A DNA stretch of 64,000 nt from NCBI RefSeq assembly GCF_037154015.1, contig NZ_JBANRL010000001.1, positions 1,488,001 to 1,552,000 on the forward strand, written 5' to 3'. Within the stretch, counting starts at the first letter, position 1; every line of letters starts with the position of its first letter. The notes under the pieces were generated by a model. That model was not told the origin of the DNA. It saw nothing but the letters and a program-made list of their open reading frames with translations, and searched no databases. This DNA is from Altererythrobacter aquiaggeris. GTDB lineage: Bacteria; Pseudomonadota; Alphaproteobacteria; Sphingomonadales; Sphingomonadaceae. The position numbers were made by a program, and so were the translations under genes. This document shows positions 27,598-49,202 of the stretch, in pieces.

Positions 27598-29172
<1,575 letters not shown>

Positions 29173-45539: not shown

Positions 45540-46982
45540 TCAGGCTGCTTGTTTCGCAAAATTTTCAAGCCGGGATTTCACTGCCGCAAGATCCGCGTCG
45601 AACAACCGGGCTTGTTCGGCTCGCGCAGTACCTTCAAGCCTGAGCAGGTAGGATGGATGTGCTGTAATCCAGAGTTCGCTACCATCGTCGAGCTCGTGCG
45701 GGATGCCGCGGGCGCGAGTAATACTCACCGTCTTTCCCAACATCGAGCGGGCAGCACTCGCACCAAGTGCGAGAATAATTTTCGGACTCACAATCGCGCG
45801 CTCCGCCTCCAGCCACCAGCGACAGGTATCAATTTCCTTCGCGGCCGGAGACTGATGAATACGTCTTTTTCCGCGCATGGTGTATTTAAAATGCTTTACG
45901 GCATTCGTGACATAGGCGGCGCTGCGGTCGATGCCGGCTTGTTCAAGATGCAGATCAAGCAATTGCCCTGCCGGCCCCACGAATGGCCGGCCCTGCAAAT
46001 CTTCATTATCGCCGGGCTGTTCGCCCACGATCATCAAATCTGCATCAGCCGGGCCCTCGCCCATAACCGGACGATTATCCAATTGGCTGATCGGGCAATT
46101 GCCGCATCCCGACACTGCCTGTTTCACGGCCTCTAGTGTGACAGGCATGGGGTCAGTTTCCTGTTCTCCGGCAGTTACCATCTGCGCTTCTCTTGATTGG
46201 GCTCCGGCTATCAACTCGGGTATCAGGGCCGCCTCAGGCATATTTTTCCAATATCGTTTTGGCATTTCCTTCACCATGGCGCCGACTTTCAGCCGTGCGG
46301 GATTGAAGGTGGAAGCATAGTATTTCAGCCATAATTCTTCGGCCGGATCATCGCCCGGCGCGTCCGATTTTTGCGCCGGTGGCCCCTCTCGCATAACTTC
46401 CCCGTCCCAGTGCAAGCAGCCACGCGGAGTGAGGATCGACCATTTCATATTCGCAAACCGGCGGCGGAAAAAACCGGCATTTGCGCGAACGATATGATGG
46501 TCCGGTTCGAACCAGGCAACATAATGGTCATCTTCGCGTGTTCCGCTTTCAATCAACCGGAACCGGACGAATGCGTGCATTTTGTGACTGTCCCGGCGAA
46601 CTGTCCGGTCCAGTTCTTCCACTCTACGCACATCGCTGTCGGTTTTATCCTCCATGATGCGCGGATTGGATTGGAGCCTCCATAATAGGCGATACAAAAG
46701 CGCAAAACGCTCAGCGTCGGAATGCAGGGCTGCGTTTTTTGCCAGCGTCAGAAAACGCCGGCTCGCCCGAGGCATTGGCGCATCAGCATCGGGCTCAGGC
46801 AACTCATTGCCTCCTCCAAACAAATCACCCACCGTGTCAGTTTCCAGCCACGCTATCCGTTCAGGCGCAATCCCGCACTGGACTGATTGCCGCGCCCGCT
46901 CGCGCCAATGGGAAAAATCGTCCGGTGCCGGCATCACCACGCTGAAATAGGCCGCTGTATCGGAACTGCGCGCAGATATCAT
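45540..46982 (-). CDS. DUF4130-UdgX fusion: uracil-DNA-binding/glycosylase protein
   Basis: 480 residues. About residues 75-235 match the DUF4130 (SAM_7-linked) domain found beside radical SAM DNA-repair proteins. About 285-480 is a UdgX-type uracil-DNA glycosylase: GEQPGDNEDLQGRPFVGPAG (320-339), the insert KRRIH with His376, which in mycobacterial UdgX becomes covalently bound to the abasic sugar after uracil removal, and AHPSYLLRLEG near 441. Three iron-sulfur Cys are visible (C293, C296, C387), as in mycobacterial UdgX. The ATG at 46982 follows the radical SAM gene by 7 bases, so they form one operon controlled by the upstream LexA box. Elsewhere the two domains are often separate genes. 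Confidence 0.92.
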   Translation of the reverse strand: MISARSSDTAAYFSVVMPAPDDFSHWRERARQSVQCGIAPERIAWLETDTVGDLFGGGNELPEPDADAPMPRASRRFLTLAKNAALHSDAERFALLYRLLWRLQSNPRIMEDKTDSDVRRVEELDRTVRRDSHKMHAFVRFRLIESGTREDDHYVAWFEPDHHIVRANAGFFRRRFANMKWSILTPRGCLHWDGEVMREGPPAQKSDAPGDDPAEELWLKYYASTFNPARLKVGAMVKEMPKRYWKNMPEAALIPELIAGAQSREAQMVTAGEQETDPMPVTLEAVKQAVSGCGNCPISQLDNRPVMGEGPADADLMIVGEQPGDNEDLQGRPFVGPAGQLLDLHLEQAGIDRSAAYVTNAVKHFKYTMRGKRRIHQSPAAKEIDTCRWWLEAERAIVSPKIILALGASAARSMLGKTVSITRARGIPHELDDGSELWITAHPSYLLRLEGTARAEQARLFDADLAAVKSRLENFAKQAA

Positions 46983-46989
46983 AGCGCCC

Positions 46990-48234
46990 TCACGCAGCAA
47001 ACAGTTCAAGCTGCTCCTGCTTGGGCGCGAGCAGATTGCGGAGATCGGCACGATCAGTCAAGGCAGTTGGACGCCAGTCGATTGCGCAAATGAAAGGGCG
47101 CACCTTTGCGATTGAAACTGTCAATTTCGCGACGTCGTCCAGCCTCAGAGTCCGGTGACGCCGGGCTGAAATAATCTGGTTCACCGCCCGCACGCCCAAG
47201 CCCGGCACGCGCAGCAATTGTTCGCGCCCTGCCCGGTTTACATCGAGCGGAAATGCGTCCCTGAATTTCAGCGCCCAAGCAAGTTTGGGATCAATATCGA
47301 GCGGCAAATTCCCCGCAGCGTCAGTCGCCGCCATAACTTCCGTTGCCTGATAACCGTAAAACCGCATCAGCCAATCCGACTGATACAATCGATGTTCGCG
47401 AATCAGCGGCGGTCGCTTCAACGGCAAAACCGCACTGGCATCGGGGATCGGACTGAACGCTGAATAATAGACCCGCCGCAAGCCAAACCCGCTGTACAAT
47501 AAGCTTGCCTTCTGCACTATATCCGCATCGGACGCAGCATCCGCGCCAACAATCATCTGTGTCGATTGTCCTGCCGGGGCAAACTTCGGAGCATTTTTGA
47601 AGTGCTTTCGCGCATCCTTGTTTTCGGTAATTGCAGCCTTCACTTCGCCCATCGCACCTTCGATCTGGAGAGAGTTCTTGTCCGGCGCAAGGCGGGCCAG
47701 ACCAGCCTTGGTCGGGAGTTCTACGTTGATTGACACACGATCCGCATAAAGCCCGGCCTGATACGCAAGTTCGGGATCGGCTTCCGGGATCGATTTCAGG
47801 TGGATGTACCCGCGAAAATCATGTTCTTCGCGCAGGATTCGTGCAGTCTCTACCAATTGCTCCATCGTAAAATTCGAACTTTTGATAATGCCCGAAGAAA
47901 GAAACAGACCCTCGATATAATTGCGCCGGTAAAAGTTCAGCGTCAGGTCGGCAACCTCCTGCGGAGTAAAGCGCGCTCGGCGCACATTCGAACTTTTCCT
48001 GTTGATGCAATAATGACAATCGAAGATGCAGTGATTGGTAAGCAAAATTTTCAGCAGCGAGATACATCGTCCATCGGGGGCATAGGCATGGCAGATGCCC
48101 ATGCCTTCGGTTGAACCGATACCCTTGCCGCCAAGACTGTTCTTTTTCGCGGTTCCTGACGAAGCACACGATGCATCATACTTTGCGGCATCCGCGAGGA
48201 TTCCCAATTTTTCCAGTGTCGAGATCTGCTTCAT
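46990..48234 (-). CDS. Radical SAM protein, putative DNA modification/repair (UDG-linked family)
   Basis: 414 residues. The radical SAM cluster motif is CIFDCHYC (C69, C73, C76). The N terminus has other conserved Cys and Gly residues (SCASSGTAKKNSLGGKGIG). RVSINVELPTKAGLARLAPDK and STQMIVGADAASD belong to the barrel. A helix-hairpin-helix DNA-binding segment LLRVPGLGVRAVNQIISARR lies near residue 341. The final residues are QLELFAA, close to the sliding-clamp pentapeptide QL[SD]LF. This family is defined by its pairing with UDG-like proteins and has no known reaction. It is first in the operon, 2 bases downstream of a GTTC-N7-GTTC LexA box. Confidence 0.9.
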   Translation of the reverse strand: MKQISTLEKLGILADAAKYDASCASSGTAKKNSLGGKGIGSTEGMGICHAYAPDGRCISLLKILLTNHCIFDCHYCINRKSSNVRRARFTPQEVADLTLNFYRRNYIEGLFLSSGIIKSSNFTMEQLVETARILREEHDFRGYIHLKSIPEADPELAYQAGLYADRVSINVELPTKAGLARLAPDKNSLQIEGAMGEVKAAITENKDARKHFKNAPKFAPAGQSTQMIVGADAASDADIVQKASLLYSGFGLRRVYYSAFSPIPDASAVLPLKRPPLIREHRLYQSDWLMRFYGYQATEVMAATDAAGNLPLDIDPKLAWALKFRDAFPLDVNRAGREQLLRVPGLGVRAVNQIISARRHRTLRLDDVAKLTVSIAKVRPFICAIDWRPTALTDRADLRNLLAPKQEQLELFAA

Positions 48235-48236
48235 GT

Positions 48237-48251
48237 GTTCCTTATATGTTC
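48237..48251 (-). promoter_or_regulatory. LexA (SOS) box upstream of the radical SAM gene
   Basis: GTTCCTTATATGTTC: GTTC-N7-GTTC, the direct-repeat LexA site of alphaproteobacteria. On the coding strand it reads GAAC-N7-GAAC and ends 2 bases before the ATG, so bound LexA would cover the transcription start region or ribosome-binding site. Confidence 0.85.
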
Positions 48252-48479
48252 TTTTATATGACTTGCATAGGTGCGAGTAAAATTATTTCGTTCGGGAACC
48301 ACGCTGCTTACCGGGCATTTCTGAAATACGGCCCGGGCCCCTCTGGCGAGCAAATGCTCGCGATGTCGGACGTATCGCAATGGCCGGCCCGCAATTCTGG
48401 ATTGGCACGATATTTCGCTAAATGCGAAAGAGGCTGTCCACTGGCAACTTCTTCGCACATCGAACGAACGGAGTTTTAC

Positions 48480-49202
48480 ATGAGATTGATCGCCTCACTC
48501 GCCATGATTACCATGGCTATTTCGCCTGTTGCCAGCGCGAAGGATTGGACTTTCGGCGATGGCCAGATGCCTGAACGCTGGTCGCTGATAAACAGTGATT
48601 ACGCATTATGTGACAGCGGCCTGATGCAATCGCCGATCGACCTGGGTAATGCCAACGCAATCGGTAATGTATCCCTCAGCACGAATTATGGATCTACGAC
48701 CGGCCAGGTCAAACTCGGCACTGAGAAGGTCCAGGTGGATTTTCCTGCCGGAATGGGCATGATGTCCGGCGACAAGGCGTTTGCACTCATCCAGGTCCAC
48801 TTCCACACGCCTGCCGAACACGCGATCGATGGGAAACGTCATCCGCTGGTCGGCCATTTTGTGCACGCGACCGAAGCGGGTGAGCTTGGCGTGTTAGGCA
48901 TCATGTTCGAGGAGGGCGAAGCCAACCCCGCGCTGCAAACAATTATCGACGCAAGCGCAGCGGGAGACGGTACAGACGTGTCGTTTGACATCAACGATAT
49001 GCTGCCTGACGACATATCTGTCTTCCGGTACATGGGTTCGCTTACAACGCCGCCTTGCAGCGAAGGGGTAAACTGGCACGTGTCGAAGGGCACGATGACA
49101 GCAAGCGGGGCGCAGATTGCCGCGCTGTATAATTTGCTCGGAGATACTTCACGCTCGCTGCAACCATTGGGTAGCCGCTTGCTGGTAGCTCCAGCCGACT
49201 AG
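48480..49202 (+). CDS. Alpha-type carbonic anhydrase, periplasmic
   Basis: Hydrates CO2 to bicarbonate. 240 residues with a signal peptide cut near ASA-KDW (residue 20). Zinc ligands are H107 and H109 in QVHFHTPAEH and H126 in VGHFVH. The threonine gate is in GSLTTPPCSEGVNW. The ATG at 48480 is chosen over the long open frame beginning at 48111 because it starts at the signal peptide and follows a GGAG site. Periplasmic location is inferred. About 245 bases between the divergent radical SAM gene and this gene hold the LexA box and otherwise nothing I could assign. Confidence 0.95.
   Translation: MRLIASLAMITMAISPVASAKDWTFGDGQMPERWSLINSDYALCDSGLMQSPIDLGNANAIGNVSLSTNYGSTTGQVKLGTEKVQVDFPAGMGMMSGDKAFALIQVHFHTPAEHAIDGKRHPLVGHFVHATEAGELGVLGIMFEEGEANPALQTIIDASAAGDGTDVSFDINDMLPDDISVFRYMGSLTTPPCSEGVNWHVSKGTMTASGAQIAALYNLLGDTSRSLQPLGSRLLVAPAD

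Follow-up and report, generated by a model that had tools for sequence, protein, structure and literature searches.

The radical SAM and DUF4130-UdgX genes of this locus form an operon that very probably belongs to the SOS response, since the direct repeat immediately ahead of its first gene has the position and conservation of a LexA operator that would keep both genes off until DNA is damaged. The motif scan located this repeat at positions 48237-48251 of the window, by which we mean the whole stretch of 64,000 nucleotides analysed here, and on the forward strand it reads GTTCCTTATATGTTC. Because the radical SAM gene lies on the reverse strand, the box is read as GAACATATAAGGAAC in the direction of that gene, followed by AC and then by the ATG. 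The original prediction had placed a GTTC-N7-GTTC site at precisely these coordinates, 2 bases ahead of the start codon of a gene pair in which a radical SAM gene is followed by a UdgX gene, and each of these points is exact, the two products being assigned to TIGR03916 and to a DUF4130-UdgX fusion, respectively. The proposal made on this basis, that the operon is under SOS control, is supported by the conservation of the box, by the manner in which its type follows the LexA box of each lineage and by the occurrence of the same motif upstream of lexA and recA. Coordinates of the features discussed below are collected in Table 1.

Table 1. Positions in the window of the LexA-type box, the putative promoter elements and the neighbouring genes.
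Feature	Position	Strand	Evidence or remarks
LexA (SOS) box	48237..48251	-	exact motif match; conservation in 78/80 orthologues; information profile
Probable -10 element, TATAAG	48241..48246	-	inside the box, between the half-sites; 5/6 match to TATAAT
-35 position, TATGCA	48264..48269	-	3/6 match, weak here; relatives have TTGRCA, 17 bp upstream of the -10
Radical SAM gene, TIGR03916 (rSAM_link_UDG), 414 aa	46990..48234	-	ATG at 48232-48234; 570.9 bits
DUF4130-UdgX fusion gene, TIGR03915 and TIGR03914	45540..46982	-	starts about 7 nt past the radical SAM stop codon
DUF4130 part of the fusion	46170-46982	-	model pLDDT 88
Divergent carbonic anhydrase gene	48480-49202	+	start 228 bases from the box, on the opposite side

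The bare motif occurs at or near the frequency expected by chance. The window contains it twice, where shuffled sequences give an expectation of 1.76 (53 of 100 shuffles have at least 2), and in the genome as a whole 74 matches compare with 55 for the reversed control; the second copy in the window (28504-28518) falls within long open frames. Rarity of the motif was therefore dropped as evidence. At such a frequency a lone copy near a start codon would be weak evidence by itself, and the case consequently rests on the position of the site and on its conservation.

Conservation at this position is far beyond chance. In a set of 80 orthologues from other public genomes, mostly Sphingomonadales, 78 carry the exact repeat immediately ahead of the radical SAM gene and the remaining two (L047 and L059) each have one mismatch, so that the comparison which the original prediction had proposed, a scan upstream of orthologous operons, came out in favour of the site. 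Additional relatives carry the exact repeat in 15 of 17 cases (the spacer is one base shorter in L220 and there is one mismatch in L230), and as the orthologue sets share taxonomy, these counts do not represent independent samples. When the relatives are aligned on the box, each of the eight half-site bases contributes 2.0 bits and most flanking columns only 0-0.2 bit; since the flanks are randomised and the half-sites invariant, the box is held by selection and not by mere shared ancestry. The gap between box and start codon is exactly 2 bases in 58 of 78 relatives, and in about 20 the ATG is farther away. These include about ten loci of the Erythrobacter/Porphyrobacter type, with the ATG up to 27 bases from the box. 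At L016, L018-L020, L022, L025, L027, L029 and L030, all of this type, an inverted repeat lies between the box and the ATG, for example GGAACAC-GAAAG-GTGTTCC, with a GAAAGG-like loop and a 5′ arm that overlaps the second half-site.

The type of box was compared across the Pseudomonadota, using 41 further alphaproteobacterial genomes representing 13 families and 17 other genomes representing 7. Of the 41 alphaproteobacterial genomes, 40 have the direct repeat ahead of their radical SAM gene (shuffles give at most 2); it reads GAAC-N7-GAAC in 33 and has the opposite orientation in 7, and G198 (L102) is the only genome without it in either orientation. In the other Pseudomonadota the E. coli-type box CTGT-N8-ACAG is found instead, exactly in 12 of the 17 genomes and in 15 if one mismatch is allowed (shuffle means of 0 and 0.85, respectively), and exact GAAC or GTTC repeats are absent from all 17. 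Exact matches of the two box types show no cross-over between alphaproteobacterial and other genomes. The region upstream of lexA was inspected in eight of these genomes, and in five it carries an exact box of the type proper to the lineage, namely CTGT-N8-ACAG at L210, L212 and L214 and the alphaproteobacterial repeat at L216 and L217. Two looser CTG-N10-CAG sites precede lexA at L213, a partial site only is seen at L211, and L215 has a different palindrome.

Three genomes, G198, G303 and G320, lack either box on the radical SAM gene. Full-length LexA is missing from both G198 and G303, whose matching proteins are UmuD-like and align with the LexA model over its C-terminal half only. G320 does possess LexA, and its lexA gene carries TTAGTAGTAATACTACTAA, the different palindrome; we considered whether a different LexA box might explain the absence in this genome and rejected the idea, as no TTAGTAGTAATACTACTAA-type site is seen ahead of its radical SAM gene. 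G320 is therefore a true exception to the pairing of box and LexA. Nothing in this analysis argues more strongly for LexA as the reader of the site than the way in which the box type follows the regulator.

Within this genome the motif is found upstream of lexA itself (L090; 174 bits for its product), recA (L153), uvrA (L099), a PcrA/UvrD helicase gene (L098), rmuC (L100), a dinB-like Y-family polymerase gene (L083) and mmcB (L091), the genes listed coming from inspected stretches around motif sites that form part of the 74. It also precedes an ImuA-like open reading frame (L082) that was recognised by eye and has no model match. Since the motif is shared by lexA, recA and further well-known SOS genes, it can be regarded as the working LexA box here. 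The arrangement on lexA, recA, uvrA, rmuC, mmcB and dinB is that of the alphaproteobacterial LexA regulon, with the same direct repeat (GTTC-N7-GTTC), and nothing sets the radical SAM/UdgX operon apart from the regulon, of which it would be one more member. In addition, GTTC-N7-GTTC lies 28 and 37 bases upstream of two genes encoding C5-cytosine DNA methyltransferases (L088 and L134), which may also be SOS controlled.

The box coincides with the probable core promoter of the operon. Columns 5 and 6 of the box are an invariant T-A in the alignment of relatives, in which a TTGRCA -35 element peaks sharply at one offset, 17 bp ahead of a TATA-type hexamer enclosed by the GAAC half-sites. In the window copy the -10 is good and the -35 poor, and a strict sigma-70 promoter was not found, so the induced level of expression may be lower or may need upstream A/T. 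LexA bound to both GAAC half-sites would cover the enclosed -10 and thereby block RNA polymerase, until RecA on single-stranded DNA triggers self-cleavage of the repressor and the promoter opens. Judging from spacing only, the first transcribed base would then be the A of the ATG or lie no more than about one base away, to give a leaderless or nearly leaderless mRNA from which the radical SAM and DUF4130-UdgX genes would be expressed together.

The best PDB sequence match of the DUF4130-UdgX protein is UdgX of Mycobacterium smegmatis (6ail, E=2.3e-44; PMC10359453), with which it shares motif A (GEQPG), the R-loop KRRIH that contains the covalent histidine, and motif B (HPS, within HPSYLLR). 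The histidine is retained in 110 of 111 aligned relatives. Because these motifs are conserved, the SOS-controlled protein is predicted to cross-link to abasic DNA as mycobacterial UdgX does (PMC10359453). Unlike the M. smegmatis enzyme, it is fused to DUF4130 and encoded next to a radical SAM gene. No PDB fold match at E<=0.001 was obtained for the DUF4130 domain despite its good model (pLDDT 88). The pair is not adjacent in every genome, since five loci that carry the box (L049, L067, L071, L073 and L077) show no UdgX gene in the 3 kb of sequence covered past the radical SAM gene. In about 15 loci, mostly of the Sphingomonas type, the radical SAM gene is followed by a hemerythrin (HHE) gene (for example L049:4285-4758 and L058:4291-4794), which usually separates it from the DUF4130-UdgX gene.

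The radical SAM protein exceeds the curated cut-off of its NCBIfam model, TIGR03916, by a wide margin (570.9 bits against 343.5); we take this radical SAM/HhH family to be the same as COG4277. The CxxxCxxC motif occupies residues 69-76, and ahead of it stand a further three invariant cysteines (C23, C48 and C57). The predicted structure has a pLDDT of 84 and is poor at residues 22-50, and its PDB matches, among those listed, are radical SAM enzymes such as MiaB, HydE/HydG, BioB and lipoyl synthase, several of which carry a second iron-sulfur cluster. Together with the extra cysteines, these fold relatives suggest that a second iron-sulfur cluster may be present here too. Solved structures were also considered as a guide to function, an approach that was set aside as it returned general radical SAM matches and none that was specific. 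Membership of the spore photoproduct lyase (SplB) family was not found: apart from TIGR03916, only Radical_SAM and Fer4_12 (below cut-offs) were matched in Pfam, and the listed PDB fold matches, the 50 best, do not include SplB. A C-terminal stretch of the protein weakly resembles the DNA-binding protein ComEA (E=0.5). Two genomes of the same genus, G519 and G520, lack a TIGR03916 gene, and the operon is hence patchy even among close relatives.

Two other accounts of the site itself have to be weighed. That the repeat is a chance match, or simply a -10 element combined with an AAGGA ribosome-binding site, seems highly improbable. The absence of enrichment of the bare motif in the window, and of strong enrichment in the genome, would fit such an account, as would the -10-like TATAAG in the middle of the box and the closeness of AAGGA to the ATG. 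A -10 element, however, leaves unexplained why the outer GAAC half-sites are invariant at an 11-base period (78/80) and why CTGT-N8-ACAG takes their place outside the Alphaproteobacteria, and AAGGA is not conserved, the variable columns 9 and 10 having 0.34 and 0.13 bit. Alternatively, the box might be genuine and serve the divergent carbonic anhydrase gene, which does begin on its other side (Table 1), or be read by another regulator that recognises GAAC repeats. We give this next to no credence, because in most relatives the box stays 2 bases away from the ATG of the radical SAM gene, and because its type varies with that of the box on lexA.

If the site is indeed a LexA operator, as we consider very probable, it could still control products that are not classical repair proteins, for instance a damage-induced tolerance or anti-parasite function in which the radical SAM enzyme acts on RNA or protein. 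This is unlikely, if more probable than the two accounts above. In its favour, SOS regulons do include genes of non-repair function and the radical SAM fold is nearest, among the matches listed, to enzymes whose substrates are tRNA, proteins and cofactors; the lack of a known fold for DUF4130 and the patchiness of the operon point the same way. Against it stand the resemblance to ComEA at the radical SAM C-terminus, weak as it is, and the chemistry of UdgX on uracil-DNA, which is established for relatives (PMC10359453) and whose motifs are conserved here. The claim in the original prediction that the gene pair handles DNA damage is consistent with the conservation of these motifs in an SOS-controlled protein, evidence that concerns the UdgX half of the pair. 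Our best guess is that the radical SAM protein acts on the lesion or on the UdgX-DNA adduct. A more detailed scheme, to which we attach rather little probability, would be a dedicated pathway for uracil and abasic-site cross-links: made from a leaderless mRNA once LexA leaves the -10, the damage-induced UdgX-DUF4130 protein would cap abasic sites covalently, and the radical SAM enzyme, with a second iron-sulfur cluster held by C23, C48 and C57, would reverse or process the UdgX-DNA adduct.

SOS control of this gene pair is not new, and the operon adds a further case to those already reported. In a study of LexA in Bacteroidetes, a two-gene uracil-DNA glycosylase (UDG) operon, COG1573-COG4277, was found to carry LexA-type motifs in that phylum (PMC8565304), and that paper states, citing the Caulobacter regulon, that SOS regulation of the operon had been reported in Verrucomicrobia and Alphaproteobacteria. 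The SOS-regulated operon named there as a 'uracil-DNA glycosylase base excision repair' operon resembles ours in having a UDG-family gene and a partner under the LexA box of the lineage. It is described from Bacteroidetes, Verrucomicrobia and Caulobacter, whereas the present cases are from Sphingomonadales and many Pseudomonadota, with the UDG fused to DUF4130, the radical SAM gene in first place and the box inside the -10 region. In addition, a 2013 analysis assigned DUF4130, an SplB-like radical SAM protein and a UDG to the SOS network (PMC3765255); its domain partners are identical to those described here, and it rests on gene neighbourhood, whereas our analysis tests the LexA box itself. 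The UdgX papers searched, among them PMC10359453, which calls the role of UdgX in physiology largely unknown, contained no mention of SOS or of the operon, and nothing in the literature covered treated UdgX jointly with a radical SAM protein.

As the regulation had been reported for the same pair in other groups, our result is mainly a confirmation with stronger comparative evidence. What it adds is the conservation footprint of the box, its turnover with the type of LexA box and its matching loss in two LexA-less genomes, together with the placement of the -10 within the box and the tie between SOS control and a UdgX whose catalytic residues are intact. A box that is kept through a change in the LexA recognition sequence implies that selection wants these proteins in the SOS response. 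For experimenters this sets the timing, in that the proteins should be looked for after RecA activation and both genes deleted together, and it connects DNA damage with a radical SAM enzyme that is as yet uncharacterised.
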